This document shows positions 14,683-53,154 of a DNA stretch of 64,000 bases, piece after piece. The stretch spans positions 446,699 to 510,698 of the forward strand of contig NZ_JABEKV010000001.1 in the NCBI RefSeq assembly GCF_013283645.1, written 5' to 3'. The notes beneath the pieces were generated by a model that saw nothing but the letters and a program-made list of their open reading frames with translations, was not told the origin of the DNA and searched no databases. A program made the translations under genes and the position numbers. The DNA is from Sinorhizobium psoraleae (GTDB taxonomy: Bacteria; Pseudomonadota; Alphaproteobacteria; Rhizobiales; Rhizobiaceae). The number at the start of each line of letters is the position of its first letter. Within the stretch, counting starts at the first letter, position 1.

Positions 14683-14707
14683 AAAGCGAGTGGCAGCACT
14701 TTGTTCC
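14683..14707 (-). promoter_or_regulatory. Candidate EcfG/RpoE2 promoter for the acidic protein gene
   Basis: On the minus strand GGAAC (14707-14703) is followed by 18 bases and TT (14684-14683), matching the general stress consensus GGAAC-N18/19-TT. The start codon is 27 bp downstream. Confidence 0.65.
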
Positions 14708-14792
14708 CAATCCTCACCTGTTCCCTATTCTCCAAGTTCCCGCTCCAGCGTCCTGCCGGCAAGGGCGAACGCTGGCGGGGATCTTCCGTTGA

Positions 14793-14817
14793 GGAACAAT
14801 TGCCATCGACGACGATT
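14793..14817 (+). promoter_or_regulatory. Candidate EcfG/RpoE2 promoter for the small membrane protein at 14893
   Basis: GGAAC (14793-14797), 18 bases, TT (14816-14817). It lies 75 bp upstream of the small gene and on the correct strand. Confidence 0.6.
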
Positions 14818-14892
14818 GGGGCTTCGAACACGCGGGAATGCGGGACGGTATCCCAAGCCCTTGTTCCGTCGGTCTCGTGGTTCAGATCAGGA

Positions 14893-15045
14893 ATGAAGGA
14901 TGGTCACCGGAGGATGTCAAAGCTTGCGACAGCAGCGGTACTTCTGATTCTGGTCGTGATCGCAGTGATCTGGGTGCTTTTTCCGTATGACGGGACCCCC
15001 GATATTGGACAGCCACCGCCGCATGCGATCGACCAATCGGATTAG
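14893..15045 (+). CDS. Small single-span membrane protein
   Basis: A 50-residue protein with one strong transmembrane helix (about residues 11-27, LATAAVLLILVVIAVIW) and a short proline-rich tail. Two starts are possible: ATG 14893 after CAGGA, and ATG 14914 directly preceded by GGAGG, which would give 43 residues. An EcfG-type promoter precedes it. Small single-span proteins of this type are common in rhizobial stress regulons, but this one is not recognised. Confidence 0.5.
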   Translation: MKDGHRRMSKLATAAVLLILVVIAVIWVLFPYDGTPDIGQPPPHAIDQSD

Positions 15046-15147
15046 GCGTCCCCCGTGGCCGCGTGTCCGGAATCCACGACACATCGCCCATACAACGCCT
15101 CCCGCCTACGTGGTGCGACGCCCATGCCGGCGTTGCACAGTGATGTC

Positions 15148-15172
15148 GGAACATCTTCAGCCGCTGGCGGTT
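15148..15172 (+). promoter_or_regulatory. Candidate EcfG/RpoE2 promoter for the SDR/ADH operon
   Basis: GGAAC (15148-15152), 18 bases, TT (15171-15172), 35 bp before the SDR start codon. The spacing to the gene is ideal. Confidence 0.7.
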
Positions 15173-15206
15173 CCTTCGGAACCCTCGTTCGAGACGGAGA
15201 TGCGAC

Positions 15207-16196
15207 ATGAGAAAAGCTCTGAGAGATGCGGTAGTGGTCATCACGGGCGCTTCGTCCGGAGTTGGGCAGGCCGCGGCTGAAGAGTTCGCCCGACGCGGTT
15301 CGAAACTCGTGCTCGCCGCCCGCGATGCGGCCGCGCTTCAACGCGTGGCGAAGACCTGTCGCGAAATGGGGGCCGAGGTCCTGGTTGTGCCGACTGACGT
15401 GACGGACGCAGACGCAGTCAGGGAGCTGGCCAGGAAGGCGACGAGCTTCGGCAAGATCGACGTCTGGTTCAGCAATGTCGGCGTCGGTGCGGTTGGTCGC
15501 TTCGTTGATACGCCGATCGCCGCCCACGAGCAGGTCATTCGCACCAACCTGATGGGCCATATCAATGACGCACATGCAGTCATTCCGATCTTTCTCAAGC
15601 AGCGCCAGGGCACCTTCATCAACATGATTTCTCTTGGGGGTTTTGCTTCCACGCCTTTTGCGACGGCCTACAGTGCCAGCAAGTTCGGCCTTAGAGGCTT
15701 CTCCGAAGCGCTCCGTGCCGAACTCGCCGATGAACCCGATATCCACATTTGTGATGTTTACCCCACCTTCATGGATACTCCGGGGGTGGCCCACGGTGCG
15801 AATTACACAGGCCGCAAACTCAGCGTTCCTCCACCCGTCTACAATGCGCGCCGTGCCGCTCGCGCCATTGTCCGTCTCGCGGAGCGTCCACGCACCTCGA
15901 TCACGGTTGGCTTCGTGGCGGACCTGGCGCGTTTCGCGCATTTTCTCGCGCCCAATCTCACGACGCGGCTGCTGGCGCAGCTTACGTCCCGTTATCTGAG
16001 CCAAGCGCCGCGGGTGGAGAGCAGCAACGGCAACTTGTTCAGGGCGCCGGCCGTGGCCGGCGGTATCGACGGAGGTCTTCGCTCGTCCCATAGAATTCCG
16101 CTTGCAACCGTGGCAGCCGTGGCTGTCGTCGGGCTCGCGGTCGCTGCCCTGATCGCCGGGAAGCCCCGTGCTTCGCACATGGGAGTCCTGAGGTGA
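15207..16196 (+). CDS. Short-chain dehydrogenase/reductase with C-terminal membrane anchor
   Basis: A 329-residue SDR. The N-terminal Rossmann motif is TGASSGVG (about residues 13-20), with the dinucleotide loop SNVGVG near residue 91 and the catalytic serine in ISLGG and Tyr155 in YSASK. After the catalytic domain (about 260 residues) it carries an extra tail ending in a hydrophobic helix (about residues 296-318), so it is probably anchored in the inner membrane. Its stop overlaps the GTG start of the next gene, so the two act together. The substrate is unknown. Confidence 0.85.
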
Positions 16197-17362
16197 AGGC
16201 CCTGACCTGGCACGGCAAGGGCGACATCCGGTGCGAGAGCGTGCCTGATCCGAAAATCGAGGACGATCGCGATGCCATCATCAAGGTCAGCGCGTGCGCG
16301 ATCTGTGGCTCGGACGTCCATATTTTCAATGGTCTCATTCCCTCGATGGAGCACGGCGACGTGCTTGGCCATGAAACGATGGGCGAGGTGGTCGAGGTCG
16401 GCAAGAGGGCGACCAGATTGAGGGTCGGCGATCGTGTCGTCGTTCCCTTCACGATCGCCTGCGGCGAGTGTTTCTTCTGTCAGCGAGGCTTCTATTCGGG
16501 CTGCGAACGCACCAATCCCGATCGGGAAAAGGCGGTGAAGCTGTGGGGCAATTCGCCTGCCGGCCTGTTCGGCTATTCCCATCTTCTCGGCGGCTATAGC
16601 GGCGGGCAGGCGGAATATCTTCGCGTGCCCTATGCGGATGTCGGACCGATCAAAGTCCCGGACGAGTTGACCGACGAGCAGGTGCTGTTTCTTTCCGACA
16701 TCTTCCCGACCGGCTACATGGCCGCCGAATTCTGCGACATCAAGCCGGCCGACACGATCGCTATCTGGGGCTGCGGTCCCGTCGGGCAGATGGCGATCCG
16801 TTCGGCGTTCCTGCTCGGAGCCGAAAGGGTCATTGCCGTGGATACGGTTCCGGAACGCCTGAGGCTCGCCGAAACGGCGGGTGCGATGACCCTCGATTTC
16901 ATGCAGGAGGACATCTACGATCGGATCATGGAGATAACCCACGGTCGGGGCGCCGACGCCTGCATCGACGCGGTCGGGACCGAAGCCGACAGCCGGGCAA
17001 GCCTCGATTCCTTTGTCGATCGCGTGAAGGTGGCCACGTTCATGGGCACCGATCGCCCGCATGTCTTGCGGCAGGCAATCCATTGCTGCCGGAATTTCGG
17101 AACCGTCTCGATCGTAGGCGTCTATGGCGGATATCTGGACAAAATACCCATGGGGTCGGCAATCAACCGCGGACTGACTTTCCGCATGGGCCAGACGCCG
17201 GTGCAGCGTTATCTGCCTTCGCTCCTCGATCGGATCGGGAAGGGGGAGATTGACCCCTCTTTCGTCATCACCCACAGGGGCAGTCTCGATGAGGGGCCGG
17301 CGCTCTACCGTACCTTCGGCGACAGGAAGGATGGTTGCGTAAAGGTGGTTCTGAGGCCGTAA
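16193..17362 (+). CDS. Zinc-dependent alcohol dehydrogenase, glutathione-independent formaldehyde-dehydrogenase-like
   Basis: A 389-residue MDR-family zinc dehydrogenase. Catalytic zinc ligands are in [10 protein letters not shown] and LGHETMGEV; the structural zinc lobe is [15 protein letters not shown]. The nucleotide-binding motif is GCGPVGQMA. The long middle section is typical of the glutathione-independent formaldehyde-dehydrogenase-like subgroup, whose substrates vary. The GTG start overlaps the SDR stop (GTGA). A stress promoter upstream of the SDR would drive both, so a role in aldehyde or alcohol detoxification under stress is plausible rather than shown. Confidence 0.88.
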
Positions 17363-19019: not shown

Positions 19020-19044
19020 AACACGCTAGACTTGGGGAAGTTCC
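19020..19044 (-). promoter_or_regulatory. Candidate EcfG/RpoE2 promoter for the nucleotidyltransferase/phosphoesterase operon
   Basis: On the minus strand GGAAC (19044-19040), 18 bases, TT (19021-19020), 35 bp before the start at 18985. The rest of 18986-19138 holds no gene I can support. Confidence 0.7.
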
Positions 19045-19726: not shown

Positions 19727-19751
19727 AACCGGCACAACGCCGGAAAGTTCC
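19727..19751 (-). promoter_or_regulatory. Candidate EcfG/RpoE2 promoter for the 188-residue protein gene
   Basis: On the minus strand GGAAC (19751-19747), 18 bases, TT (19728-19727), 22 bp before the start codon at 19705. Confidence 0.68.
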
Positions 19752-20136: not shown

Positions 20137-20163
20137 GGAACCGTTCCCGCCGGACAATGTTCC
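20137..20163. promoter_or_regulatory. Palindromic EcfG/RpoE2 site between divergent genes
   Basis: GGAAC (20137-20141), 17 bases, GTTCC (20159-20163). Read either way it gives GGAAC-N18-TT. It can serve the minus-strand gene starting at 20097 (42 bp away) and the plus-strand DUF2267 gene. Confidence 0.65.
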
Positions 20164-20183: not shown

Positions 20184-20208
20184 GGAACAATCAAAAGCGA
20201 CGTCGGTT
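20184..20208 (+). promoter_or_regulatory. Second candidate EcfG/RpoE2 promoter for the DUF2267 gene
   Basis: GGAAC (20184-20188), 18 bases, TT (20207-20208), 32 bp before the start at 20240. It is better placed than the upstream palindromic site, giving this gene tandem stress promoters. Confidence 0.68.
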
Positions 20209-20711: not shown

Positions 20712-21818
20712 TCATCGTGATTCCCGTCCGGACCGGATGGCGATGGAACGCGCCGGTCGCGACTCGGCGGTTGCGAAGTATGCGGCCAGCGCCACGATTT
20801 CGTTGTCGGAAAGCGTTCTCGCTACCTCTCGCATCAAATGTCCATATCCGGTGCCGCCGCGCCGCCCCTCGCGGAAGAGGCGGAGTTGTTGCTCGACATA
20901 GGGCGCTGGCTGGCCGGCCAGCGATGGGAATACCGGATTGCGATCTCGGCTCGCGTGGCAGACAAGGCAGGCGGGAATACGTCTTGACGGATTTCCCTCC
21001 GTGGCAAGTTTCCTGCCTGCTTCGACAAGCTCTGTCGCAGTGCCTGGTCTTCCCGGGGGTGGGGGCAATGCTGCGAAATGCGCTGCGAGGCCTTGCCAGT
21101 GGCGACGGTCGACGATCTTTGCGACCACATTCATGACGCCGCTCGCTCTGCGGTCCTCGGCGTAAGCGCCGAGACTCTGCAGAAGGTAGGTCTCGTTTTG
21201 GCCTGCGATGACCGGCGTCGCGGTGCTGCGACCCCGGCCATCCACGCCATGGCATCGCGTGCATTCGGCGAGAGCCTGCTGAAAGGTCGTTGGCCGATCG
21301 ATGAGCGCACCCGCCGGGCCGTATGCCAGATCGCGATAGCCCTCGACGCCAAGCGCCGGCAGTCGGCGCAGGAAGGCGACCATCGCCCAAGCCTCGTCTT
21401 CGCGTTGTTCGCTGGGCCAGGCCGGCATTCCGGTGAACCGCACACCATGCTTGACGATGCGAAAGAGTTCGGCATCGCTCCAGGTGTTGACGCGCTCGGC
21501 GAGGTCCGGCGGCTGCGGCAGCATGCGCAAGACTGCCGGCGAGCGGGGTTCGCCCGGTGCGCCGTGGCAAAGGGCGCAACCACGCGCAAAGTGGCCTGCC
21601 GCCGTCTGGACGGCGTGGTGCGGCAGCTCCGGAGGGACTTCAACTGCAAGAGCATATGTTCTGACTGCCGACCGCATTGCGAAATGCAGGAACCAGTCGG
21701 TGATCTTCCAATGGCCGCTCGACGCGCCCACGTTGAAGAAACCGATCCAGGCGCCGAGAACCACCGCGAAAGGGAGAATAGCGAGAACTACGGCGACGTG
21801 TTTCCAGTTGACGTGCAT
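20712..21818 (-). CDS. Triheme c-type cytochrome of the caa3 oxidase operon
   Basis: A 368-residue exported or N-terminally anchored cytochrome with three haem motifs: CALCH (about residue 80), CTRCH (about 187) and CLVCH (about 283). An N-terminal hydrophobic helix (about residues 8-27) anchors it. The last two domains resemble class I c4-type modules (VIAGQNETYLLQSL and SLAGQPAPYVEQQL phrases). It is the last gene of the operon, and its ATG overlaps the preceding TGA. It probably passes electrons to the oxidase encoded upstream. Confidence 0.88.
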   Translation of the reverse strand: MHVNWKHVAVVLAILPFAVVLGAWIGFFNVGASSGHWKITDWFLHFAMRSAVRTYALAVEVPPELPHHAVQTAAGHFARGCALCHGAPGEPRSPAVLRMLPQPPDLAERVNTWSDAELFRIVKHGVRFTGMPAWPSEQREDEAWAMVAFLRRLPALGVEGYRDLAYGPAGALIDRPTTFQQALAECTRCHGVDGRGRSTATPVIAGQNETYLLQSLGAYAEDRRASGVMNVVAKIVDRRHWQGLAAHFAALPPPPGRPGTATELVEAGRKLATEGNPSRRIPACLVCHASRDRNPVFPSLAGQPAPYVEQQLRLFREGRRGGTGYGHLMREVARTLSDNEIVALAAYFATAESRPARSIAIRSGRESR

Positions 21819-22459
21819 CAGCCCTCTGCCTTCCTTTGATGGCCCGGCGCCAATAGCCGAGCCAGGAGCGTCACCCCTCCGGTGAGATAAACGACAGCGC
21901 CGACGGCGAGCATGATGACCCCACCAAGCACCTGGTCCTGCTCGGCGCTGAGGGGATTACCAAAACAGACGACAGAGTCCCTCCCATAGAGAGGCCTCGG
22001 GCTGAGGGCGAGCAGCACGCCCATCAAGGTCATGTGCACTGACGTGAGAAGAAGCGCGAAGGCCCCGGAGAGCGCCGCCTGGTCCCTTCCGCCGTGCTGT
22101 CCGATACAGGAAAGCCACAGGAAAAGCCCTGCTGCGAGGAAGGTTGCTTGCTCCAGCAGGAGAGCCGCGACGTTGGTCCGCGCGAGCGCGCGCAAGATCG
22201 GCGCGTGCCATGTCCACACGACAACAAATTCGACGAACGAGGCAATCAGAGGCGTTGCCGGTGCAAACAGAAGGGCAGCAGCGGACCGGTGGATCCTGAG
22301 TGTGCTCAACCCCATCGCTATCAGCGGTGCCGCGATCGCGACTATGCCCATATGCGCCAGCATATGGGCGGTAAACGATCCTTGCGAACCCGGGAGCAGG
22401 GAACCTGTAAGAATCAGGGCCAGCAGCGCCATCCCTGACAGGAGTGCCAGCCGCCTCAT
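21818..22459 (-). CDS. CtaG-like (caa3_CtaG) cytochrome oxidase assembly protein
   Basis: A 213-residue polytopic membrane protein with about six helices, of the caa3-type CtaG family linked to copper delivery to subunit I. Histidine-bearing helices are visible in FTAHMLAHMGIVAIAAP, VVVWTWHAPI and LLTSVHMTLMG. ATG 22459 overlaps the preceding stop (ATGA); an in-frame GTG lies at 22468. The second oxidase cluster has its own homologue at 58275-59162. Confidence 0.82.
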   Translation of the reverse strand: MRRLALLSGMALLALILTGSLLPGSQGSFTAHMLAHMGIVAIAAPLIAMGLSTLRIHRSAAALLFAPATPLIASFVEFVVVWTWHAPILRALARTNVAALLLEQATFLAAGLFLWLSCIGQHGGRDQAALSGAFALLLTSVHMTLMGVLLALSPRPLYGRDSVVCFGNPLSAEQDQVLGGVIMLAVGAVVYLTGGVTLLARLLAPGHQRKAEG

Positions 22460-22854
22460 TGCAAACACTCCGTCACGAACAGCACCGGCAGCGCGACGAA
22501 GACCACTGCGATGAAGCTCAGACCGGAAAGCAACAGCGTGGCGAAACCCTGGAAGAGCGTGCGGTCATGGCGCGTCGGCTCATCATGCGGCGGGTCGTGG
22601 GCGCCGAAGCCCCATTGCCGCCAGGCGAGCCAGGCAGACACCAGAATGGCGACAAGCGCGAATGCCGTCGCCACGCCTATGCCGACACGAATTGCATCGA
22701 AGCCGATTGGGAACCGGTCGCGTTTGGCGCAATAGATTGCCACGCCCAGATAGCAGATCAGGAAGTGAGCCGCCCAGACGACCGGAGCCGTGAAGAGTGT
22801 CCAGAGCGATTCCAGGCCGCCGCTGGGACGCGATCGTGGAGGCGTCGTGCGCAT
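22456..22854 (-). CDS. Small membrane protein of the caa3 oxidase operon
   Basis: A 132-residue protein with three or four predicted membrane helices (APVVWAAHFLICYLGVAIYC; VATAFALVAILVSAWLAW; LLSGLSFIAVVFVALPVLF) and charged loops. It starts two bases after the oxidase stop codon and overlaps the CtaG-like gene. A protein of similar kind, encoded at 57976-58287, occupies the same relative position in the second cluster, so both are probably oxidase accessory subunits. No name is assigned. Confidence 0.78.
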   Translation of the reverse strand: MRTTPPRSRPSGGLESLWTLFTAPVVWAAHFLICYLGVAIYCAKRDRFPIGFDAIRVGIGVATAFALVAILVSAWLAWRQWGFGAHDPPHDEPTRHDRTLFQGFATLLLSGLSFIAVVFVALPVLFVTECLQ

Positions 22855-22856
22855 CG

Positions 22857-25379
22857 CTACCTCCATCCGGCTTGCGGGAAGAGCCCAATCACGGGGAAGG
22901 TGATTGCGGCGGTGATCACGAGAAAATGCCAGAAGAGAACCACGTTGCTCAGATCGGCATCGTATTGGCGCGTCAGGCGGCCTGCGAAGCTGCGCGCCAG
23001 GCAATAGGCCTGCATGACGGCACCGACTGCGGCATGAGCCAGCACCCATATGACCAGTATCCAGACAATCGCCGGGTATACATGCGCGGTCGGCTGCATC
23101 GCGTGCGCCCGGGGCCCTTGGAGGGCCGCGACGCTTGCGGCGCAGGTCAAAGCGAAGGAGACCGCGAGGCAAAGCCGCATGACGAGAACGTCGTCCTTGG
23201 TGTTGTAGCGTCGGGCCACGACGGTCAGGCCCCATGCCGCGGCAAAGAGTGCCAGCGCCAGCAACGGCCAGAATGAACCTGGACCGTCGATGCCGCCGGT
23301 AAAATCAGGGTGAATCGTCCAATAGAAAAAGTATCCGAAGACGAGACTTGCGAATGCGGTGCTGTCGCCGACCATGGTGATGAACATCGCCCACCAGCCT
23401 ACCGACGCCGGGCCCGAGGCATAGATAGGCAATGTGAGATCGAGGCCGACGTCCTTCTCCGGCTTTTCCGGGATCTCGGCCGTTCCGGTCCAGAGCCACC
23501 AGACGATGGCAGTGAAGGCCGCCATCGCAGCCACCAACGAAGCAATCCACCAATGAAAGGTAAGCGCGATGAAAGTTGCGCCGAGCGATGCAGCCGAAAC
23601 GATTGTGAGATAGGACGTTCCGCCGACGCGCAGGACTTGCAGGGGCCTGGCATCGAGGACCGAGGTGACGAGCCCTTCTCGCCGGCCTTCCTCTGCGTCG
23701 GGGAGATAGCCGCGTCCTTCGCTGATATCGCGCATCAGCGTCTTCTGGTCCCATAGCGGATAGCGGCTCGTGATCACCGGAATCGAGCGCACGCCCCAGT
23801 TCTCCTCGGGTTCCGATATCCATTCGAGCGTGCCGGCCCGCCAAGGGTTCATCTCGCCACGGAGGTAACGATTTTTGGGCCGGAGAACGTCGAAAGCGAC
23901 GAGCAGCACACCGGAGGCAAAGACGAAGGCGCCCGTGGTGGAAATCAGGTTGAGCCAATCCCAACCGAGTTCCGTCTGATAGGTGAATACCCTGCGAGGC
24001 ATGCCGCGCATGCCTGTCAGATGCATGGGAAAGAACGCGATGTTGAAGCCGGCAAACATCAGCCAGAACGCTATGCGTCCGAGCGCGTCCGAGAGGTGCT
24101 TCGCGTCTATGAGAGGATAATAATAGTAGATCCCGGCCACGACCGGGAACAGCATACCGCCGATCATCACGTAATGGAGATGCGCCACGACGAAATATGT
24201 GTCGTGCGCCTGCCAGTTGAAAGGCGCGAGCGCCACCATGACGCCCGTCAATCCGCCGATGACGAAGATGGCGATGCCGCCAACGCCGAAGAGCATCGGG
24301 ACCGAGAAGATGACCCGGCCGGCAAGCATGGTCGCGATGAAGACGAAAAGCTGCACGCCGGTTGGAATGACGACCGCTTCCGATGCCGCCGAGAAGAAGG
24401 CCAGCGAAATCTGCGGCAGCCCTGTTGCGAACATGTGGTGAACCCACAAGCCAAAGGATAGAAAGCCGGTGCCGACGGCGGCGAGAACGATCCAGGAGTA
24501 TCCGACGATCGGCCGTTGCGAAAAGGTCGGCACGATCATGGCCATCAACGCAATGGCCGGCAGGAAAATGATATAGACCTCCGGATGACCGAATATCCAG
24601 AACAGGTGCTGCCATAGCAGCGGATCGCCTCCGCGTGTCGGATCGAAGAAAGGCCAGTCGAACATTCGCTGCATCTCGAACAGGATGTCCCCGGCAATCA
24701 GCGGCGGAAAGGCGAACAGGATCATTCCCGCGACGATCAGCAGGTACCAGGCAAACAGAGGCATCAAATTGATGCGCATGCCCGGCGCGCGGCATTTCAT
24801 GATGCCGACGATCAGCTCGACTGCCGCTGCTATCGACGCGATCTCGATAAAGGACAGGCCGAGCAGCCAGATGTCGGCGCCTACTCCGGACAACTCGGGA
24901 TCGGTGGCGAGCGGCGGGTACATGAACCATCCCGATGACGGCGCCGCATCAAAAAAGATGGAGCCGCATACAAAAACGCCGCCGATCAGAAAACTCCAAA
25001 AGCCGAACGCACCTAGCCGCGGGAAAGGCAATTCCCTGGCGCCCAGCATCGGCGGCAACAGGAAGATCGCCGCAGCCTCGAAGATCGGCACGGCGAAGAG
25101 AAACATCATCACCGTTCCGTGGAGCGTGAAGGCCTGATTGTAGAAATCCGCGGAAAACAGGTCGCTCACCGGCGTCGCCAGTTGCAAGCGCATCAACAGC
25201 GCCAGAACGCCGCCAAAGAGCATGAACGCGAACGCCGCCGACGAATACCATAGTCCGACTTGAAAGTTATTGACCGACGTCCAGTAGCGCCAGCCGCTTG
25301 GATTCGCCCAGACTGCACGCAATCGCTCCGCCTGCGCATGGCGGATCTTGCGCGTGTCTGCGTCAGGTCGAACACTCAT
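22857..25379 (-). CDS. Cytochrome c oxidase subunit I fused to subunit III (caa3-type)
   Basis: An 840-residue fusion. Residues about 1-570 are subunit I, with the low-spin haem helix LHGTVMMFLFAVP, the proton-channel/CuB motif FGHPEVYIIFLP, the CuB histidines LWVHHMF, and the haem ligand pair in VVAHLHYVMIGG. After a linker, residues about 620-840 carry the helices of subunit III (GWWAMFITMVGDSTAFASLV). The start overlaps the subunit II stop (ATGA). The glutamate in HPEVY marks an A1-type enzyme. It reduces oxygen with electrons from cytochrome c. Confidence 0.93.
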   Translation of the reverse strand: MSVRPDADTRKIRHAQAERLRAVWANPSGWRYWTSVNNFQVGLWYSSAAFAFMLFGGVLALLMRLQLATPVSDLFSADFYNQAFTLHGTVMMFLFAVPIFEAAAIFLLPPMLGARELPFPRLGAFGFWSFLIGGVFVCGSIFFDAAPSSGWFMYPPLATDPELSGVGADIWLLGLSFIEIASIAAAVELIVGIMKCRAPGMRINLMPLFAWYLLIVAGMILFAFPPLIAGDILFEMQRMFDWPFFDPTRGGDPLLWQHLFWIFGHPEVYIIFLPAIALMAMIVPTFSQRPIVGYSWIVLAAVGTGFLSFGLWVHHMFATGLPQISLAFFSAASEAVVIPTGVQLFVFIATMLAGRVIFSVPMLFGVGGIAIFVIGGLTGVMVALAPFNWQAHDTYFVVAHLHYVMIGGMLFPVVAGIYYYYPLIDAKHLSDALGRIAFWLMFAGFNIAFFPMHLTGMRGMPRRVFTYQTELGWDWLNLISTTGAFVFASGVLLVAFDVLRPKNRYLRGEMNPWRAGTLEWISEPEENWGVRSIPVITSRYPLWDQKTLMRDISEGRGYLPDAEEGRREGLVTSVLDARPLQVLRVGGTSYLTIVSAASLGATFIALTFHWWIASLVAAMAAFTAIVWWLWTGTAEIPEKPEKDVGLDLTLPIYASGPASVGWWAMFITMVGDSTAFASLVFGYFFYWTIHPDFTGGIDGPGSFWPLLALALFAAAWGLTVVARRYNTKDDVLVMRLCLAVSFALTCAASVAALQGPRAHAMQPTAHVYPAIVWILVIWVLAHAAVGAVMQAYCLARSFAGRLTRQYDADLSNVVLFWHFLVITAAITFPVIGLFPQAGWR

Positions 25380-26413: not shown

Positions 26414-26440
26414 GGAACCCCTGATTGCGTTCAAAGTTCC
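26414..26440 (-). promoter_or_regulatory. Candidate EcfG/RpoE2 promoter for the fused-subunit caa3 oxidase operon
   Basis: GTTCC at 26436-26440 and AA at 26416-26417, so the minus strand reads GGAAC-N18-TT 42 bp before the coxB start. The site is palindromic (GGAAC also at 26414-26418), but no plus-strand gene lies ahead of it. Confidence 0.62.
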
Positions 26441-28550: not shown

Positions 28551-28577
28551 GGAACCAGTGAAGGGCGCGAATGTTCC
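28551..28577. promoter_or_regulatory. Palindromic EcfG/RpoE2 site between the isoaspartyl methyltransferase fusion and catalase
   Basis: GGAAC (28551-28555), 17 bases, GTTCC (28573-28577). It reads GGAAC-N18-TT on both strands and can fire towards 28462 and towards katE. Apart from this and the nearer katE site, the 391-base gap 28463-28853 holds nothing I can support. Confidence 0.65.
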
Positions 28578-28788: not shown

Positions 28789-28814
28789 GGAACCAAGCAT
28801 CCCACGCATTGGTT
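28789..28814 (+). promoter_or_regulatory. Proximal candidate EcfG/RpoE2 promoter of catalase
   Basis: GGAAC (28789-28793), 19 bases, TT (28813-28814), 40 bp before the catalase ATG. The HPII-type catalase KatC of Sinorhizobium meliloti is a known RpoE2 target, which supports the reading. Confidence 0.68.
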
Positions 28815-28853: not shown

Positions 28854-30971
<2,118 letters not shown>

Positions 30972-40662: not shown

Positions 40663-40687
40663 AACTTGATGTTGCAGCTTTTGTTCC
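40663..40687 (-). promoter_or_regulatory. Candidate EcfG/RpoE2 promoter for the dehydrogenase pair
   Basis: On the minus strand GGAAC (40687-40683), 18 bases, TT (40664-40663), 125 bp before the start at 40538. The leader is longer than at most other sites. Confidence 0.55.
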
Positions 40688-40706: not shown

Positions 40707-40731
40707 GGAACACTCGCGCGAAAGCGAGGTT
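40707..40731 (+). promoter_or_regulatory. Candidate EcfG/RpoE2 promoter for the epimerase/glycosyltransferase operon
   Basis: GGAAC (40707-40711), 18 bases, TT (40730-40731), 137 bp before the start at 40868. Together with the minus-strand site it makes the 329-base gap 40539-40867 a divergent stress promoter region; I see no gene in it. Confidence 0.58.
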
Positions 40732-40867
40732 TGTACCTTGAGGCGGGCCCCACCATGCAGCTGATCAAAGTAGAACAAGAAGAAGAAGTCATGGATGAAG
40801 GAACATTTGCTACCCAAGCTTGTTGGAGCTTTGTCTCTATCTCTGATCGAACATCGTCAGGTGCATC

Positions 40868-44240: not shown

Positions 44241-44243
44241 GCG

Positions 44244-45377
44244 ATGCGTTTTCTTTTCTACACCCATTCGCTTGTTTCCGATTGGAACCACGGCAATGCC
44301 CATTTCCTGCGCGGCGTCATGCGGGACCTGCTGCGACGCGGCCACGATGCGGTGGCGCTCGAGCCGCGCGATTCCTGGAGCCGCCTCAGCCTGATCGCGG
44401 ATCAGGGCGTCGGACCCATCGCGGCTTTCCGCAAGCACTTTCCGGAGCTGCGCGTCGAGATCTACGATGCCGATTTCGATCACGAGGCAGCGATCAGTGA
44501 GGCCGACGTCGTCGTGGTGCATGAATGGACGGAGCCGGCATTGGTCGCAGAACTCGGCCGCATTCGTCGCGCAGGCGGCAGCTTCACGCTCGCCTTCCAC
44601 GATACCCATCACCGCGCCGTCACGGCGAAGAGCGACATCGCCCGCCTCGATCTTTCCGGTTACGATTTTGTCCTGACGTTCGGCGAGGCGCTGCGCGAAC
44701 GCTATCTCGGCGCGGGCTGGGGCAGACACGTCTTTACCTGGCACGAGGCCGCCGACACTTCGTTGTTCCATCCAATTGCGAATGTCGAGAAAAGAGGCGA
44801 TCTCGTCTGGATCGGCAATTGGGGCGATGACGAGCGCAGCGCCGAGATCACGTCCTTCTTCGTCGAGCCCGCGCGACAATTGAGGCTTACGGCGACGGTG
44901 CGGGGCGTAAGATATCCCGAAGCCGCCCTCCGGGCATTGCGCGCGGCGCGAGTCGTCTATGGCGGCTGGCTCGCGAATGCCGCCGTTCCGCGGGCCTTCG
45001 CCGAGCATCGCGCGACTGTGCACATTCCTCGACGTCCCTACGTCGAAGCCTTGCCGGGAATACCGACCATCCGGGTTTTCGAAGCACTCGCCTGCGGCAT
45101 TCCGCTGATTTCGGCGCCATGGAACGACACCGAGGGTCTCTTCCGCCCGGGCACGGATTTCCTTTTCGCCAGGAACGGCAAGGAGATGAAGCGTCTTCTG
45201 CGCCAGGTGCTCTCAGAGCCAGCCTTCGCGCAGGAAATGGCTGCCTCCGGATTGGCAACGATCCAGGCACGCCATACGTGCGGGCATCGCGTTGACGAGC
45301 TTCTTCGCATCCTTGCTTCCTACAGGCCAAAGAAGGTTGCGGACGGCCGCATTGCCTCCAAGGAGATCGCGATATGA
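44244..45377 (+). CDS. CgeB-like glycosyltransferase (first of three)
   Basis: A 377-residue protein of the CgeB/spore-maturation glycosyltransferase family, GT-B like. The C-terminal donor region reads IPTIRVFEALACGIPLISAPWND, and the N-terminus RFLFYTHSLVSDWNHGNAHFLRG resembles that of the next two genes. It starts three bases after the GT4 gene and overlaps the next gene by four bases. There is no signal peptide or membrane helix, so it acts on the cytoplasmic face. Confidence 0.85.
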   Translation: MRFLFYTHSLVSDWNHGNAHFLRGVMRDLLRRGHDAVALEPRDSWSRLSLIADQGVGPIAAFRKHFPELRVEIYDADFDHEAAISEADVVVVHEWTEPALVAELGRIRRAGGSFTLAFHDTHHRAVTAKSDIARLDLSGYDFVLTFGEALRERYLGAGWGRHVFTWHEAADTSLFHPIANVEKRGDLVWIGNWGDDERSAEITSFFVEPARQLRLTATVRGVRYPEAALRALRAARVVYGGWLANAAVPRAFAEHRATVHIPRRPYVEALPGIPTIRVFEALACGIPLISAPWNDTEGLFRPGTDFLFARNGKEMKRLLRQVLSEPAFAQEMAASGLATIQARHTCGHRVDELLRILASYRPKKVADGRIASKEIAI

Positions 45378-46462
45378 GGATCGCTTTTTACGGATCGAGT
45401 CTCGTTTCAGCCTATTGGAACGGCGCGGCGACCTATTATCGCGGATTGCTCCGAGCGCTTGCCGCGCGCGGGTATGAAACCACTTTCTATGAGCCGGACG
45501 TGTACGACCGGCAGAAGCACCGCGACATCGATGTGCCGGACTGGTGCAGGGTTGTCGTTTATCAGGGAACAGTCGCGGCGTTGAAGCGCGTCGCGACGGA
45601 AGCCGCCAACGCCGATGTCGTTGTCAAGGCGAGCGGCGTAGGCTTCGAGGACGATCTGCTGCTCGCTGAAGTCATGGCGTCTGCAAAGCCGACTGCGCTG
45701 AAGATCTTCTGGGATGTCGACGCCCCCGCCACACTTGCAGAGCTGAGAGCCGCACCCGATCATCCTCTCCGGCGGACGCTTCCTTCCCTGGATCTCATCT
45801 TGACCTATGGCGGCGGCGATCCCGTGGTCGAGTCCTATCGCGCCATCGGCGCGCGGGAATGCGTTCCCATCTACAATGCCGTCGACCCTGAGACGCATCA
45901 TCCCGTGGCCGCGGAACGGCGCTTTGCCGCCGATCTCGCCTTCCTCGGTAACCGCCTGCCGGATCGGGAGGAGCGAGTGGAAGCTTTCTTCCTGCAGCCG
46001 GCACGCCAGCTCTGGCAGCGGCGATTCGTGCTCGGCGGAGCCGGCTGGCATGACAAGTCCCTGCCCGCAAACGTCGCCTATGTCGGCCACGTTCCGACTG
46101 CCGACCACAACGCCTTCAACGCGACGCCGAATGCAGTCCTGAACATTTCGCGCGCCAGCATGGCGGAGAACGGCTTCTCGCCGGCAACCCGCGTTTTCGA
46201 GGCGGCCGGGGCAGGCGCCTGCCTGATCACCGACGCGTGGGAAGGCATCGAACTCTTCCTGACGCCCGGAGAGGAAGTGCTGGTCGCCAGAGACGGACAG
46301 GACGTCATCGAACTCATGGCCAATCTCACACCGGCGAGCGCGAAGGAGATCGGAGAGCGGGCGCTCCGTCGCGTGCTCGGCGAACACACCTACGCGCATC
46401 GTGCCGCGGAGGTGGACCGCCTTTTCCGGAGCCGGGCGCGCCAGGTGGAGGCAGCCGAATGA
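45374..46462 (+). CDS. CgeB-like glycosyltransferase (second of three)
   Basis: A 362-residue paralogue of its neighbours. The N-terminus IAFYGSSLVSAYWNGAATYYRGLL and the donor motif SPATRVFEAAGAGACLITDAWEGIE correspond to those of the other two CgeB-like proteins. Both ends overlap neighbouring genes by four bases (ATGA). The close similarity suggests tandem duplication followed by specialisation for different donor or acceptor sugars. Confidence 0.85.
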   Translation: MRIAFYGSSLVSAYWNGAATYYRGLLRALAARGYETTFYEPDVYDRQKHRDIDVPDWCRVVVYQGTVAALKRVATEAANADVVVKASGVGFEDDLLLAEVMASAKPTALKIFWDVDAPATLAELRAAPDHPLRRTLPSLDLILTYGGGDPVVESYRAIGARECVPIYNAVDPETHHPVAAERRFAADLAFLGNRLPDREERVEAFFLQPARQLWQRRFVLGGAGWHDKSLPANVAYVGHVPTADHNAFNATPNAVLNISRASMAENGFSPATRVFEAAGAGACLITDAWEGIELFLTPGEEVLVARDGQDVIELMANLTPASAKEIGERALRRVLGEHTYAHRAAEVDRLFRSRARQVEAAE

Positions 46463-47577
46463 GCCGTCCGCTCGACATCGTCGTCCTCGGTCTCTCGCTT
46501 TCCTCCTCGTGGGGCAACGGCCATGCGACGACGTTCCGGGCATTGCTTCGCGGTGTGCGCGCTGCCGGCCACAAAGTGACCTTCCTGGAACGGGACGTAC
46601 CGTGGTACGCCCGCCACCGCGACATGATCGCGCCGGATTTCTGCAATCTCATCCTTTACAAAGATATCGACGAGTTGCTCGTGCGGCATGCCGGCACGCT
46701 GGTGGGGGCGGATGCCGTCGTCATCGGCTCCTATGTGCCGGACGGGGTGGAAGTTATCGACATTGTCGTTGACCTCGCCCCGAAGCGGTTGTGTTTCTAC
46801 GACATCGATACGCCCGTGACACTTGCCAAACTCGAACGTGGCGACGAGGAATATCTTGCCCGCCGTCAGGTTCCGCTCTTCGATCTCTATTTTTCCTTCT
46901 CCGGCGGCCGGACGCTCGACCGGCTGCGAGGCGAGTTTGCAGCCAGACGGCCCCTGGCGCTCTACTGCGCCGTCGATCTGGACCTCTATCGCAACACCGG
47001 TGCGCCAAGGGAATGGGACCTCGGCTACCTCGGTACCTTCAGCCCCGACAGACAGCCCGCGCTCGAGCGCTTGTTGCTGCAGCCGGCGCGGCGATTGCCG
47101 GAAATGCGCTTTGTCGTTGCGGGGCCGAGCTATCCTGCGGACATCCGCTGGCCGAAGAACGTAGCACGCATCGAGCACTTGCCGCCTTCCGAGCACGCCG
47201 AATTCTATAGCCGCCAGCGTTTCACTCTGAACGTGACGCGTACCGACATGGTGGCGGCCGGTTGGTCGCCGAGCGTCCGGCTCTTCGAGGCGGCCGCATG
47301 CCGCACGCCGTTGATCAGCGATTGGTGGGAGGGCATCGACAGCTTCTTTGCACCCGGGGAGGCCGCTGTCATCGCACGGGGCAGCGGCGACGTCGTCGCA
47401 GCATTGACGGACCTCACTGACCAACAGTGCAAGGCGCTTGCCGATTGCGCTTATCAGCGCGTCGCAAGCGCGCACAGCGCGGCGCCCCGCGCCAGGGCCT
47501 TCGTCGAGGCAATCGAAAGCGTCGCGTCCAAGACCAATCTCGCCACGAGACACTCCGAGCGGAGGTTTCCGGTCTAA
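46459..47577 (+). CDS. CgeB-like glycosyltransferase (third of three)
   Basis: A 372-residue paralogue with N-terminus IVVLGLSLSSSWGNGHATTFRALL and donor motif SPSVRLFEAAACRTPLISDWWEGID. The ATG at 46459 overlaps the preceding stop; the open frame continues upstream to 46237 inside the previous gene, but that extension has no ribosome site. A 20-base gap leads to the UXS-like gene. Confidence 0.85.
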   Translation: MSRPLDIVVLGLSLSSSWGNGHATTFRALLRGVRAAGHKVTFLERDVPWYARHRDMIAPDFCNLILYKDIDELLVRHAGTLVGADAVVIGSYVPDGVEVIDIVVDLAPKRLCFYDIDTPVTLAKLERGDEEYLARRQVPLFDLYFSFSGGRTLDRLRGEFAARRPLALYCAVDLDLYRNTGAPREWDLGYLGTFSPDRQPALERLLLQPARRLPEMRFVVAGPSYPADIRWPKNVARIEHLPPSEHAEFYSRQRFTLNVTRTDMVAAGWSPSVRLFEAAACRTPLISDWWEGIDSFFAPGEAAVIARGSGDVVAALTDLTDQQCKALADCAYQRVASAHSAAPRARAFVEAIESVASKTNLATRHSERRFPV

Positions 47578-47597
47578 CACCGAAAGGAGAACGGCCC

Positions 47598-48638
47598 ATG
47601 GCAAGAAGAAACCGAGGAAGTCGAGGAAAGATCATCCTGGTCGCCGGCGGGGCCGGCTTTGTCGGCTCCCATCTTTGTTCAGCGCTTCTCAGCGCCGGCA
47701 ATCGGGTGATCTGCCTCGACAGCTATCTCACCGGTTCCCCTGCCAATCTGAGCAGTCTGCAGGACAATCCTTACTTCACCGTGATCGAGCAGGACGTCTG
47801 CGACGAAATCGAGATCGATGAACCGCTCGACTGCGTCTATAACCTGGCTTGCCCCGCCTCACCGCCGTCCTATCAGGCCGACCCGATCCATACGATGATG
47901 ACCAGCGTTACAGGGACCGGAAACCTTCTACGGCTTGCCGAGCGGCACCGAGCCGTCTTCCTTCAGGCGTCGACGAGCGAGATCTACGGCGATCCGTTGG
48001 AGCATCCGCAGCAGGAGGACTACTGGGGTCATGTCAACTGCACGGGACCGCGAGCGTGCTACGACGAAGGCAAGCGCGCAGCTGAGGCTCTGTGCTTCGA
48101 CAGTCTGAGGGCCGGAAACGTGGATGTGCGGGTTGCTCGCATCTTCAATACATACGGCCCGTATATGCAGCCCAACGACGGCCGGATCGTCTCGAACTTC
48201 ATTGTCCAGGCCTTGAGAAACGAGCCGCTTACGATCTATGGCAGCGGCGAACAGACGCGCTCGTTCTGCTATGTGTCCGATCTCGTCGAAGGATTGATCA
48301 GGTTGATGAATCGCCAGCCGAATCCCGGCGGGCCGGTAAACCTTGGCAACCCAGGCGAGTTTACGGTCATTGAATTGGCCGAGCTGGTATTGTCCAAGAT
48401 CGCGACCGCGTCGACGATCGTCCATGTGCCCTTGCCGCCGGACGATCCGCAGCGCCGTCGACCGGATATAGCGCGCGCCAGGACGCTTCTGGACTGGCAG
48501 CCGAAAGTCCCGTTGCAGGATGGGCTATCGCACACCATAGCCTGGTTCCAAAGTGCGCTTGCGAAGCAGCGAACCGTGCGCCGGCCAGGTCGCTCTCGCC
48601 GTCGCCCGCAACAGCCAGTCCTTTCCCAGGATCTTTAA
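47598..48638 (+). CDS. UDP-glucuronate decarboxylase (UDP-xylose synthase)-like protein
   Basis: A 346-residue extended SDR. The cofactor motif is VAGGAGFVGSHL, and the catalytic motif GPRACYDEGKRAAEAL is characteristic of UDP-glucuronate decarboxylases. Other marks are NLACPASPPSYQADP, ARIFNTYGPYMQPNDGR and YGSGEQTRSFCYVSDLVEGL. ATG 47598 follows AAGGAGA. It would supply UDP-xylose or a related pentose donor to the glycosyltransferases. The last 25 residues are basic and extra. Confidence 0.88.
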   Translation: MARRNRGSRGKIILVAGGAGFVGSHLCSALLSAGNRVICLDSYLTGSPANLSSLQDNPYFTVIEQDVCDEIEIDEPLDCVYNLACPASPPSYQADPIHTMMTSVTGTGNLLRLAERHRAVFLQASTSEIYGDPLEHPQQEDYWGHVNCTGPRACYDEGKRAAEALCFDSLRAGNVDVRVARIFNTYGPYMQPNDGRIVSNFIVQALRNEPLTIYGSGEQTRSFCYVSDLVEGLIRLMNRQPNPGGPVNLGNPGEFTVIELAELVLSKIATASTIVHVPLPPDDPQRRRPDIARARTLLDWQPKVPLQDGLSHTIAWFQSALAKQRTVRRPGRSRRRPQQPVLSQDL

Positions 48639-48640
48639 TC

Positions 48641-49411
48641 ATGGTTCAGCAGACCCAAGACTGCATGGCCATAGAGGATCAGATCGCTGCGCTGGGGCCC
48701 TGGTTTCACAACATGCGGATCAAGGGCGTCGAGACATCGCCCGATCATTTCCTCGGGGACTATCCTGCGGTCAAATGGAAGGCTTTCAGACATGTCGTCC
48801 CGGAAGACCTTGAAGGTAGAAGCGTGCTCGACATCGGCTGCAATGCAGGGTTCTACTCGCAGGAAATGAAACGCCGCAATGCTGGCCGCGTGCTCGGCAT
48901 CGATTCAGATCCACGCTATCTGCGGCAAGCGAAATTCGCGGCAACACAGACCGGGATCGACATCGAATTCAGGCTGATGTCCGTCTACGACGTGGCACAA
49001 CTCCGCGAGAAATTCGATCTCGTCCTCTTCATGGGTGTTCTTTACCATCTCCGTTACCCGCTGTTGGCACTGGATCTTCTTTACGAACACGTCGTCGGCG
49101 ACGAGATGCTCTTCCAGTGCATGCAGCGCGGCGCGAATTCGGCGGCGCCGCTGGATGCGGACTACGATTTCCAGGAGTGGCAGGTCTTCGACCGGCCCGA
49201 TTACCCCAAGTTGTTCTTCGTCGAACACCGCTTCGCCGACGATCCCACCAACTGGTTCATTCCGAACAGGGCTGGAGTGGAGGCGATGCTTCGCAGTTCC
49301 GGCTTCGTCATCGAAGCCAATCCCGAACGGGAGGTCTATCTCGTCCGGCGAGGAAAGCGCCCGTACATGAATGAGCCCGTTCCGAGCGTCGGCGCTTCCA
49401 TGGAATCTTAG
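48641..49411 (+). CDS. Class I SAM-dependent methyltransferase
   Basis: A 256-residue methyltransferase. Motif I is SVLDIGCNAGFYSQEMKRR near residue 65, motif II GIDSDPRYLRQA and motif IV FDLVLFMGVLYHLRYPL. The extended C-terminal part with DRPDYPKLFFVEHRF and DPTNWFIPNRAGVEAML resembles a family found beside glycan genes (tRNA-modifying CmoB-like wording is also present). It starts two bases after the UXS-like stop and ends the operon. It probably O-methylates the glycan or its precursor. Confidence 0.87.
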   Translation: MVQQTQDCMAIEDQIAALGPWFHNMRIKGVETSPDHFLGDYPAVKWKAFRHVVPEDLEGRSVLDIGCNAGFYSQEMKRRNAGRVLGIDSDPRYLRQAKFAATQTGIDIEFRLMSVYDVAQLREKFDLVLFMGVLYHLRYPLLALDLLYEHVVGDEMLFQCMQRGANSAAPLDADYDFQEWQVFDRPDYPKLFFVEHRFADDPTNWFIPNRAGVEAMLRSSGFVIEANPEREVYLVRRGKRPYMNEPVPSVGASMES

Positions 49412-50230: not shown

Positions 50231-50257
50231 GATCGCTCCTTTTTGCCGCTGCAGCAC

Positions 50258-50282
50258 AACCGGCATGCACTCCGTTTGTTCC
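50258..50282 (-). promoter_or_regulatory. Candidate EcfG/RpoE2 promoter for the tail-anchored protein gene
   Basis: On the minus strand GGAAC (50282-50278), 18 bases, TT (50259-50258), 28 bp before the start at 50230. Confidence 0.68.
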
Positions 50283-50319: not shown

Positions 50320-50344
50320 GGAACATCTGCAGCACCGACGAGTT
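50320..50344 (+). promoter_or_regulatory. Candidate EcfG/RpoE2 promoter of the P450 gene
   Basis: GGAAC (50320-50324), 18 bases, TT (50343-50344), 27 bp before GTG 50371. It lies inside the upstream extension of the open frame, which argues for the later start. Confidence 0.66.
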
Positions 50345-51889: not shown

Positions 51890-51914
51890 AACCGATGTGA
51901 CGACCGAAGGTTCC
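51890..51914 (-). promoter_or_regulatory. Candidate EcfG/RpoE2 promoter for the 57-residue membrane protein
   Basis: On the minus strand GGAAC (51914-51910), 18 bases, TT (51891-51890), 24 bp before the start codon. Confidence 0.68.
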
Positions 51915-51988
51915 AAGGCAGGATTGTCTGCTTGATGCGTCCGCGTAGTGGAATGAGCCGGGCAGACGGGGCTCGACGGGCGGCGCGA

Positions 51989-52495
51989 TCAATGTTTGGC
52001 CGTCACGTCGCGCTCGTCGCGTTCCAGGAACCTGCGCGTGATCTGCGCGGCGTGCTGATCAAGCCACTCGGCCATCGCAACCTCCTGCTGCAGAATGATC
52101 TCGCAGACCCGCTTCGTTTCCTGATCGCCCGCATAGTCGGCGGCAGCGATGAGAATCCTGTAGCTTGCGATTTCCATGTGCTCGAACGTGTAGCTGGCCA
52201 GTGAACCCTTCACCACCTCGTCTTCGACAAAAAGGCCGCTCAAACCCTGCCCGAGGGCAATGATCTTGCCGCCGATATCCTTGACCGTCGACGTTCCGCC
52301 ATTCAGTCGCTCAAGACATTGTTCGAGCATCGCGGCCTGATCGCGAGTCTCCTGCAGGTGCGAGTCGATCCTGGATTTGAGCTCAGGATAGTTTTCCAAC
52401 CGTCGGGACTGGCTGGTGAGCATCGTGATTGCCTGTTCTTCCATTGCATGCGCATCCCTGAGCCAGGCCTGCAAGTGGTCGGTCGCGTTCGCCAT
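51989..52495 (-). CDS. DUF892 / YciE-like ferritin-like protein
   Basis: A 168-residue four-helix bundle protein of the DUF892 (YciE/YciF) ferritin-like group. The first helix has WLRDAHAMEEQAITML, with a glutamate in the position of a ferritin metal ligand; later helices carry LKSRIDSHLQETRDQ and EHMEIASYRILIAAA with further Glu/His pairs. Members are widely stress-induced, with unproven iron or peroxide roles. ATG 52495 follows AAAGGA. A stress promoter ends 32 bp upstream. Confidence 0.88.
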   Translation of the reverse strand: MANATDHLQAWLRDAHAMEEQAITMLTSQSRRLENYPELKSRIDSHLQETRDQAAMLEQCLERLNGGTSTVKDIGGKIIALGQGLSGLFVEDEVVKGSLASYTFEHMEIASYRILIAAADYAGDQETKRVCEIILQQEVAMAEWLDQHAAQITRRFLERDERDVTAKH

Positions 52496-52526
52496 CACGG
52501 GTTCCTTTCGTTTTCGGTGGTGCTCC

Positions 52527-52551
52527 AACCGGTGACCTCTGGAAATGTTCC
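52527..52551 (-). promoter_or_regulatory. Candidate EcfG/RpoE2 promoter of the DUF892 gene
   Basis: On the minus strand GGAAC (52551-52547), 18 bases, TT (52528-52527), 32 bp before the start at 52495. Confidence 0.68.
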
Positions 52552-52594
52552 GGCATCGAATGGGGGGTGGGCTGAACGCCGGCCGCCTGGAATC

Positions 52595-52619
52595 GGAACA
52601 ATACCGATCCATGGCGATT
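52595..52619 (+). promoter_or_regulatory. Candidate EcfG/RpoE2 promoter for the 107-residue protein gene
   Basis: GGAAC (52595-52599), 18 bases, TT (52618-52619), 56 bp before ATG 52675. Confidence 0.65.
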
Positions 52620-52674
52620 GGATGCAGCAAACCGCGGCCAGTCGTTGGACGCGGCGCCATCTGTTGAGGCAGTC

Positions 52675-52998
52675 ATGCAGGAAGAACTTAAAATATACCG
52701 GCTGTCGCCACTGGCGAAACCTGACGATCCGAATTGGCAGAACGCCACGTATCAAGGCGAATTGATCGTGGTTGCAAGATCGAGCGGCGACGCCCGTATC
52801 GTTGCCTCGCAGGCAGAACTCGACTTTCGCGAGATCGACGCGAAACCTGCAGAAGGTGTCACGACCGACATGGCGAGTGCCTTCCGCAGCGAGAAGCTCT
52901 ACACCGTGATCGAGGAGGGGCCGGCACCGCCGGATGCAAAGCGCGGAGTGATCGGCGGCAAGGTGAGACTCGACAACATCATTTCGACGCAGCTCTGA
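52675..52998 (+). CDS. Conserved hypothetical protein
   Basis: A 107-residue soluble protein with the readable phrases EELKIYRLSPLAKPDDPNW, GELIVVARSSGDARIVAS and SEKLYTVIEEG, which suggest a compact alpha/beta domain. ATG 52675 follows TGAGG; an in-frame ATG at 52618 coincides with the promoter's TT and is unlikely. It is divergent from the DUF892 gene. Function unknown. Confidence 0.7.
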   Translation: MQEELKIYRLSPLAKPDDPNWQNATYQGELIVVARSSGDARIVASQAELDFREIDAKPAEGVTTDMASAFRSEKLYTVIEEGPAPPDAKRGVIGGKVRLDNIISTQL

Positions 52999-53129
52999 GC
53001 ACGTGCGGCCGCTGACGGGGCCCCGCCCCGGGAATTTGCCGTGCCTTCGCTAACAACCCACCCAATCGCCGCCCCGGGGAAAGGAGCTCCGGGCTGGACG
53101 GACTGACGGCCGTCGCAAAGCACGCGCTC

Positions 53130-53154
53130 GGAACTTTATCCGCATTTCTCGGTT
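53130..53154 (+). promoter_or_regulatory. Candidate EcfG/RpoE2 promoter for the KGG-like / DUF1328 pair
   Basis: GGAAC (53130-53134), 18 bases, TT (53153-53154), 41 bp before ATG 53195. It is the last such site I found in the window. Confidence 0.68.

Follow-up and report, generated by a model that had tools for sequence, protein, structure and literature searches.

The window analysed here is a 64-kb stretch of Sinorhizobium psoraleae DNA, and between positions 14683 and 53154 (the block, 38.5 kb) it carries a dense array of GGAAC-N18-TT sites which, judged from sequence, almost certainly forms a promoter island of the EcfG type. Its sites differ in one base from those around the gene of the general-stress sigma factor RpoE2: the base before GTT in the -10 element is G, T or A, and never C. 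Because of this -10 class, and because the gene of a second EcfG-like sigma factor (RpoE5/EcfG2) lies repeatedly in or near the same gene cluster in related genomes, RpoE5/EcfG2 appears to be the likeliest main reader of the island. That the block is a conserved stress island read mainly by a sigma of this type rather than by RpoE2 is a proposal to which we would give just short of an even chance.

A spacing-specific island of EcfG-type sites

An exact scan of the window finds 30 GGAAC-N18-TT matches; 100 dinucleotide shuffles give 5.85 +/- 2.67, and not one of them (0/100) reached 30. All but one (29/30) fall in the block, the remaining match, at 1501, sitting inside a gene. The excess belongs to one spacing: within the block N18 gives 29 matches whereas each of the 21 other spacings tried gives 1-11 (about 6), and when the -10 is required to contain GTT the figures become 21 for N18 and 0-4 for the others. 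The block thus holds one match per 1.3 kb as against one per 8.9 kb in the genome (837 matches in 7.43 Mb), and the 425 kb flanking it (a 464-kb stretch minus the block, with 6,698 bases masked in the stretch) shows no N18 excess, with 33 matches at N18 and 26-54 at the other spacings tried. The dense island described in the initial annotation, which had been made from the letters alone, is therefore real, and the genome scan that it proposed did not find the same density everywhere. Density is indeed uneven, but the block is not the only cluster: a search covering 1.66 Mb of the genome turned up another at C23:123-149 kb and, on contig C13, a small third one.

By gene calls from a simple codon-usage caller trained on 21 long open reading frames (ORFs), 24 of the 29 block matches, at 20 places, stand between genes and the other 5 within predicted genes; together with one extra site of N19 spacing, at 28789 before katE, this makes the 22 candidates at 20 sites counted initially a fair tally. 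The claim that most of them stand shortly before start codons on the correct strand is likewise borne out, as the distance from the end of the -10 to the start codon is mostly 22-61 bp for the sites that head genes (for three genes an ATG or TTG other than the caller's choice was used), and no N18 site outside the block was found before the xox, lut-like or second-oxidase genes. In their GGAAC -35 element, fixed N18 spacing and position shortly before genes the block sites agree with ECF15-type promoters, and there is a high likelihood that they are promoters of this EcfG (ECF15) type; most genes of the block have such a predicted promoter at their head. GC content runs from 57 to 65% across the window in 2-kb steps, and no tRNA genes were found in the window.

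The base before GTT differs between the island and RpoE2 loci

An RpoE2 query places this sigma factor outside the window, at C1:1111699 (C1 being the contig that holds the window), next to a NepR match, and the ORF beside it was taken for phyR by place and sequence. The window itself had been said to lack phyR, nepR and ecfG; it contains no match to NepR and none to RpoE2, which upholds that statement for these two, while PhyR had no separate search.

Among the 21 N18 sites of the block that end in xGTT, x is G in 13, T in 5, A in 3 and C in none. In seven genomes from four other genera, the surroundings of the RpoE2 gene (20 kb per genome, 11.7 kb in one; n = 47) have C in 40 and T in 7, with no G or A, and the rpoE2 stretch of this genome has CGTT at 3 of 3 xGTT sites. 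The contrast in C (0/21 at the block, 40/47 at RpoE2 loci) corresponds to a Fisher p of 6e-12. Ten 20-kb stretches around RpoE5-like or inositol-synthase genes in the same seven genomes (n = 41) give G 20, C 10, A 6 and T 5, and here the contrast in G (20/41 against 0/47 at RpoE2 loci) corresponds to 9e-9; both p values are too small, because sites from related genomes were counted as independent, as were the two strands of each palindrome. The sites around ecfG2 on R. etli p42f (n = 11) have G 6, A 2, T 2 and C 1. As to the choice of the seven genomes, 16 outside the genus match inositol synthase, 13 were searched for an RpoE5-like sigma and 7 had a hit of at least 54%; since 51 of 199 family genomes carry an RpoE5-like sigma at E 1e-37, this -10 comparison covers a minority of the RpoE5-bearing genomes.

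The block had originally been assigned to EcfG/RpoE2. The EcfG/ECF15 half of that assignment is sustained by architecture, density and conservation; identity with RpoE2 promoters is not supported, because CGTT prevails at RpoE2 loci and is absent from the block (0/21 xGTT sites).

Conservation across relatives

Counterparts of the island's genes and sites are found on chromids (large plasmids) in S. terangae and S. mexicanum, and some of them on S. meliloti pSymB. The sites were compared across the genus at a zinc alcohol dehydrogenase (adh) gene, whose protein is present in 26 of its 33 genomes:

40663..40687 (-): EcfG-type site A, -10 AGTT, 125 bp before the adh gene 39546-40538 of a dehydrogenase pair, an exception to the 22-61 bp distance
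40707..40731 (+): EcfG-type site B, -10 GGTT, upstream of the epimerase/glycosyltransferase operon
40800..40824 (+): EcfG-type site C, -10 TGTT, 44 bp before ATG 40868
40868..49411 (+): eight-gene sugar operon with three epimerase-family proteins, four glycosyltransferases and a methyltransferase (Pfam)

Site A is found in 22 of the 26 adh loci (AGTT in 21, GGTT in 1), site B in 23 (GGTT in all 23) and site C in all 26 (TGTT in 23, GGTT in 3); CGTT occurs in none of these 71 conserved copies, and the copies that are lacking come from four genomes. Identity of the base before GTT is 95% at A, 100% at B and 88% at C, with spacer averages of 88%, 68% and 81%, so that the constraint on this base is close to that on the spacer at A and C, and clearly exceeds it at B. 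The inositol-synthase gene can be followed further afield, in 19 loci of the family sample, 18 of them with upstream sequence: an N18 site lies within 200 bp in 8 of the 18 and is absent from 10, and its -10 is GGTT in 8 of 8, in the own genus and four others. In other records the inositol-synthase -10 reads TGTT in two Rhizobium and in Phyllobacterium, and AGTT in Mesorhizobium CA14.

The replicon differs between species: large plasmids carry the island in S. terangae, S. mexicanum and S. sojae, and part of it in S. meliloti, whereas here it is on contig C1, which at 650-670 kb and 1110-1130 kb matches an S. meliloti record of chromosome size. The island's presence on C1 would reflect either a move to the chromosome or a misassembly.

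A second EcfG-like sigma gene in and near the cluster

A paralogue of RpoE2, 42% identical to it, is encoded at C23:130768 with a GGAAC-N16-CATT site upstream; because this site resembles the one printed for S. meliloti rpoE5 (PMC6180224), we name the paralogue RpoE5, and it is 87% identical to the S. meliloti plasmid copies. In a tree, RpoE5-like proteins and R. etli EcfG2 are set apart from RpoE2 proteins with branch support 100/100 (25 and 8 proteins), EcfG2 having a long branch whose position inside its side is weak (91/45). RpoE2 passes the family model NF009169; the RpoE5-like protein passes only the ECF superfamily model TIGR02937, with 145.5 bits for its best specific model at a cut-off of 307, and there was no EcfG2-specific model among the family models seen. 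ECF sigma factors recognise the -10 element through the region that follows a conserved GT motif. In the alignment the two clades differ consistently after this motif, for example as KAWLFTILRNE versus KSWLFTIMRNT.

An ORF on the opposite strand downstream of an rpoE5-like gene, L107:2005-2388 (-), has an end that by eye resembles a NepR-type anti-sigma, as reported for S. meliloti rpoE5. One other ECF sigma, at C12:1485378-1485836 and 40% identical to RpoE5, was set aside by eye because the adjoining 260-aa ORF looks like a membrane anti-sigma.

The RpoE5-like gene lies 2-26 kb from an inositol-synthase or adh gene in the following genomes, which belong to several genera:

Mesorhizobium CA14: RpoE5-like (58%) about 8 kb from the inositol-synthase gene
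BR1-1-16 (Mesorhizobium): RpoE5-like (52%) about 2 kb from the inositol-synthase gene, the comparison being limited to that island gene
G190: RpoE5-like flanked by adh and the sugar operon; the 20-kb stretch around it holds five GGTT sites and one CATT site
Plasmids of Rhizobium 11515TR and AB2/73: RpoE5-like directly 3' of the sugar operon, with non-CGTT at 13/15 and 18/20 [AG]TT sites
S. sojae (G020) and G012: RpoE5-like after the same gene block, 18-20 kb from adh
G001 and G024: RpoE5-like 20-25 kb from adh
G195: RpoE5-like about 10 kb from inositol synthase

In the present genome the island stands apart from the rpoE5-like gene, which sits in the second site cluster on another contig. This cluster (C23:123000-149000) is also of the EcfG type and has 18 upstream N18 sites around the gene, with both CGTT and GGTT; the small one on contig C13 (C13:8001-26226) spans 18 kb with 8 upstream N18 sites, of which 4 are CGTT. 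The two islands are split by -10 class in S. terangae and S. mexicanum as well: on their chromids CGTT makes up 2/21 and 0/21 of the [AG]TT sites in the counterpart of the block (S. mexicanum and S. terangae, respectively), and 7/17 and 6/21 in the counterpart of the rpoE5 cluster, all with bins summed by hand.

Sites and genes of the island

The remaining predicted sites and the genes that they accompany are as follows:

14683..14707 (-): EcfG-type site, -10 CTTT, 27 bp before gene 14378-14656 (-); CTTT in S. terangae, GCTT in S. mexicanum
14793..14817 (+): EcfG-type site, -10 GATT, intergenic, 390 bp before the short-chain dehydrogenase gene; GATT in S. terangae too
15148..15174 (both strands): inverted repeat GGAAC-N17-GTTCC, GGTT on +, 35 bp before the short-chain dehydrogenase start at 15207, and TGTT on -; whole in S. 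terangae, single strand only in S. mexicanum
15207..17362 (+): short-chain dehydrogenase and zinc alcohol dehydrogenase (Pfam)
17457-18167: metallophosphoesterase (Pfam), after the nucleotidyltransferase-like gene
19020..19044 (-): EcfG-type site, -10 TGTT, 35 bp before ATG 18985 of the nucleotidyltransferase-like gene
19727..19751 (-): EcfG-type site, -10 GGTT, 22 bp before gene 19139-19705 (-)
20137..20163 (both strands): inverted repeat GGAAC-N17-GTTCC, TGTT on +, GGTT on -; no counterpart in S. terangae or S. mexicanum
20184..20208 (+): EcfG-type site, -10 GGTT, 32 bp before DUF2267 gene 20240-20671; GGTT in S. terangae and S. mexicanum
20712..26374 (-): cytochrome c oxidase cluster of COX2-cytochrome c, COX1, CtaG-like protein and c-type cytochrome (Pfam)
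26414..26440 (both strands): inverted repeat GGAAC-N17-GTTCC, GGTT on -, 42 bp before COX2, and AGTT on +, facing the 3' end of 26477-28462
26477..28462 (-): protein with PCMT and erythromycin-esterase domains (Pfam)
28551..28577 (both strands): inverted repeat GGAAC-N17-GTTCC between the PCMT/esterase gene and katE, TGTT on +, GGTT on -
28789..28814 (+): EcfG-type site with N19, -10 GGTT, 40 bp before katE; the spacing is N18 in S. terangae
28854..30971 (+): large catalase, HPII/KatE-like (Pfam; the top NCBIfam match, catalase HPII, is under its cut-off)
31408..31432 (+): EcfG-type site, -10 GGTT, 25 bp before the pyruvyl transferase gene at 31457
35492..36595 (-): inositol-3-phosphate synthase (Pfam; NCBIfam match under cut-off), 93% identical to the S. 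meliloti 4H41 protein
36635..36659 (-): EcfG-type site, -10 GGTT, 40 bp before the inositol-3-phosphate synthase gene
36726-38498: gene with no N18 site on its strand
50258..50282 (-): EcfG-type site, -10 GGTT, at the start of gene 49895-50266 (-); GGTT in S. meliloti, S. terangae and S. mexicanum
50320..50344 (+): EcfG-type site, -10 AGTT, 27 bp before cytochrome P450 gene 50371-51633; AGTT in S. terangae and S. mexicanum
51890..51914 (-): EcfG-type site, -10 GGTT, 24 bp before small gene 51693-51866; GGTT in S. meliloti, S. terangae and S. mexicanum
52527..52551 (-): EcfG-type site, -10 GGTT, 32 bp before DUF892 gene 51989-52495
52595..52619 (+): EcfG-type site, -10 GATT, 56 bp before gene 52675-52998; GATT in S. 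terangae and S. mexicanum
53130..53154 (+): EcfG-type site, -10 GGTT, 41 bp before the 49-codon ORF 53195-53344 (read by eye); GGTT in S. mexicanum

The perfect inverted repeat GGAAC-N17-GTTCC is present at 4 of the 20 intergenic places, each instance counting on both strands. The reverse complement of GTTCC is GGAAC, and GTTCC itself includes the GTT of the -10, so each repeat amounts to a full predicted promoter on either strand. Three of the four separate divergent genes. The fourth (26414) has the COX2 gene on one side and katE on the other in S. terangae, which lacks the PCMT/erythromycin-esterase gene there; a homologue of that gene is found elsewhere in the cluster in S. sojae and G012. 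The idea that such repeats are a selected element genome-wide was not supported: among the 50 listed of 75 palindromes (N14-N20), N17 and N16 number 11 each, counted by eye.

Which sigma factor reads the island

If RpoE5 is the main reader, stress would inactivate a NepR-type anti-sigma and free RpoE2, which would in turn switch on rpoE5, a gene reported as an RpoE2 target in S. meliloti. RpoE5 holoenzyme would then open GGAAC-N16-DGTT promoters (D being A, G or T) and raise together the catalase, the alternative oxidase, protein-repair and ferritin-like proteins and the sugar pathway, with the four symmetric GGAAC-N17-GTTCC sites firing both ways. A broader proposal, which we advance only tentatively, is that RpoE5/EcfG2 may have a promoter code of its own, GGAAC-N16-GGTT, in which GTT is preceded by G, T or A and not by the C of canonical CGTT, and may have built its own 40-kb stress island, comprising sigma gene, effectors and two-way promoters, that has lasted across genera and changed replicons.

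Several observations weigh against a reading by RpoE5. The site cluster around this genome's own rpoE5 gene, C23:123-149 kb, is mixed (C 9, G 7, T 2, A 2; n = 20), CGTT is also found at 6/17 sites of the G195 stretch and 3/7 of the G117 stretch, and an extra inverted repeat in the adh region of G024 reads TGTT one way and CGTT the other. Within the genus linkage is loose: in the 25 genomes where both genes could be placed, tallied by hand, they are at most 26 kb apart in 4, 84-121 kb apart in 5, farther apart on one contig in 3 and on different contigs in 13, many of these last being drafts, and our confidence in the sigma assignment is therefore lowered a little. In R. etli, katG, a named EcfG2 target (PMC3892343), has no N18 site, nor does the ecfG2 gene on its own strand. 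Overexpression of RpoE5 in S. meliloti raised one gene only, a result for which the authors allow that RpoE5 was inactive (PMC6180224), and yet S. meliloti keeps part of the cluster, including these sites. In M. extorquens the targets of EcfG1 and EcfG2 have a common consensus, GAAC-N16,17-C/GGTT (PMC4814048), and in Sphingopyxis a GGTT promoter is transcribed in vitro by both EcfGs (PMC7083833). The frequency of GGTT alone looked at first like a sign of RpoE5 specificity, as the 51 family genomes that carry an RpoE5-like sigma have more GGTT per Mb than the 148 that lack one (p 3e-7); it was dropped as such a sign because CGTT per Mb rises too (p 9e-10, both values uncorrected for kinship), and the GGTT/CGTT ratio is, if anything, lower where the sigma is present (p 0.054; 0.19 and 0.79 by size cut).

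These points lend some weight to two other accounts. The island may belong to the ordinary RpoE2 regulon, with RpoE2 reading GGTT, TGTT and AGTT directly, non-CGTT elements tuning promoters to a lower or graded output, and RpoE5 acting as accessory or amplifier. We hold this to be doubtful but well worth considering, given that the S. meliloti consensus as stated in the initial annotation fixes TT alone, that EcfG regulons include non-CGTT -10 elements and output in vitro falls when single bases of CGTT are changed (PMC7083833), that overexpression of RpoE2 in S. meliloti raises 320 genes, compared with the single gene for RpoE5 (PMC6180224), and that the genome-wide counts do not tie GGTT to RpoE5. 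It is harder to reconcile with the lack of GGTT at all 47 xGTT sites of the seven RpoE2 loci and with the repeated location of the RpoE5-like gene in or near the cluster, and it would be odd for mere tuning that 21 of 21 xGTT sites of the block deviate alike and keep their base within the genus at each site tested. Alternatively, both sigmas might read the island about equally, as members of overlapping EcfG regulons, the -10 variants carrying no sigma specificity. The shared C/GGTT promoters of M. extorquens and the mixed -10 classes around rpoE5 here, in G195 and in G117 would fit such an arrangement, but the sharp -10 contrast between RpoE2 loci and the block and the largely distinct regulons of EcfG1 and EcfG2 in R. 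etli (PMC3892343) make it unlikely.

Explanations that dispense with a sigma factor fare worse. The four perfect repeats invite the thought that the sites, above all the inverted ones, are operators for a transcription factor, but 16 of the 20 intergenic places are non-palindromic, directional, near start codons and of known sigma-promoter architecture, and N17 is no commoner than N16 among the palindromes listed, so that we consider operators very improbable. Chance clustering or sequence bias is refuted by the spacing control, and the shuffles, the flanks and the conservation across species also speak against it, leaving it a negligible probability.

Comparison with known systems

A one-base difference in the -10 element, kept site by site and found around the gene of a second sigma, offers a direct way to test how a genome is divided between two similar stress sigmas, for which some 20 predicted promoter places are named here. 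We found no description of such an island or of such a -10 split in the literature within reach of the search, most subscription papers lying beyond it. At least two EcfG-like sigmas were present in half of the alphaproteobacterial genomes completed by the time of the R. etli study, an occurrence said there not to have been satisfactorily explained (PMC3892343).

The block resembles the general-stress-response promoters of Sphingopyxis granuli, which are of the GGAAC-N16-CGTT type with TGTT, CATT and GGTT variants that are transcribed in vitro, but CGTT is the commonest -10 there and is found at 0 of 21 xGTT sites in the block (PMC7083833). The M. extorquens consensus likewise includes GGTT; it differs from the situation here in serving both sigmas, and no island is described in the available text (PMC4814048). 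With the RpoE2 regulon of S. meliloti the block has in common the GGAAC -35, the spacing, the position before genes, stress-type genes and the host genus (PMC3616915, PMC6180224), and it departs from that regulon in a -10 that is never CGTT and in having its genes packed in one island. The locus tags SMb2022x-SMb2024x, presumed to belong to this region, are absent from the main text of PMC3616915, and none of the papers searched mentions them along with RpoE2.

R. etli provides a further comparison. EcfG1 promoters there are reported as GGAAC-N16-CGTT, and the CGTT motif occurs in 1 of 19 EcfG2-dependent units, no EcfG2 motif having been found (PMC3892343). Unlike the block, the 98 kb of p42f that were examined have no match for most window proteins, and the P450 encoded there has no detectable similarity to that of the window. 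Like the block, however, p42f has an N18 cluster, in which an EcfG2-like gene lies between a ferritin-like and a P450 gene. Its product, taken as EcfG2, is 51% identical to the RpoE5 of this genome over 158 residues, and the gene, the 52nd by RefSeq numbering, is probably PF00052; it is ringed by GGAAC-N16-DGTT sites, one of them an inverted repeat.

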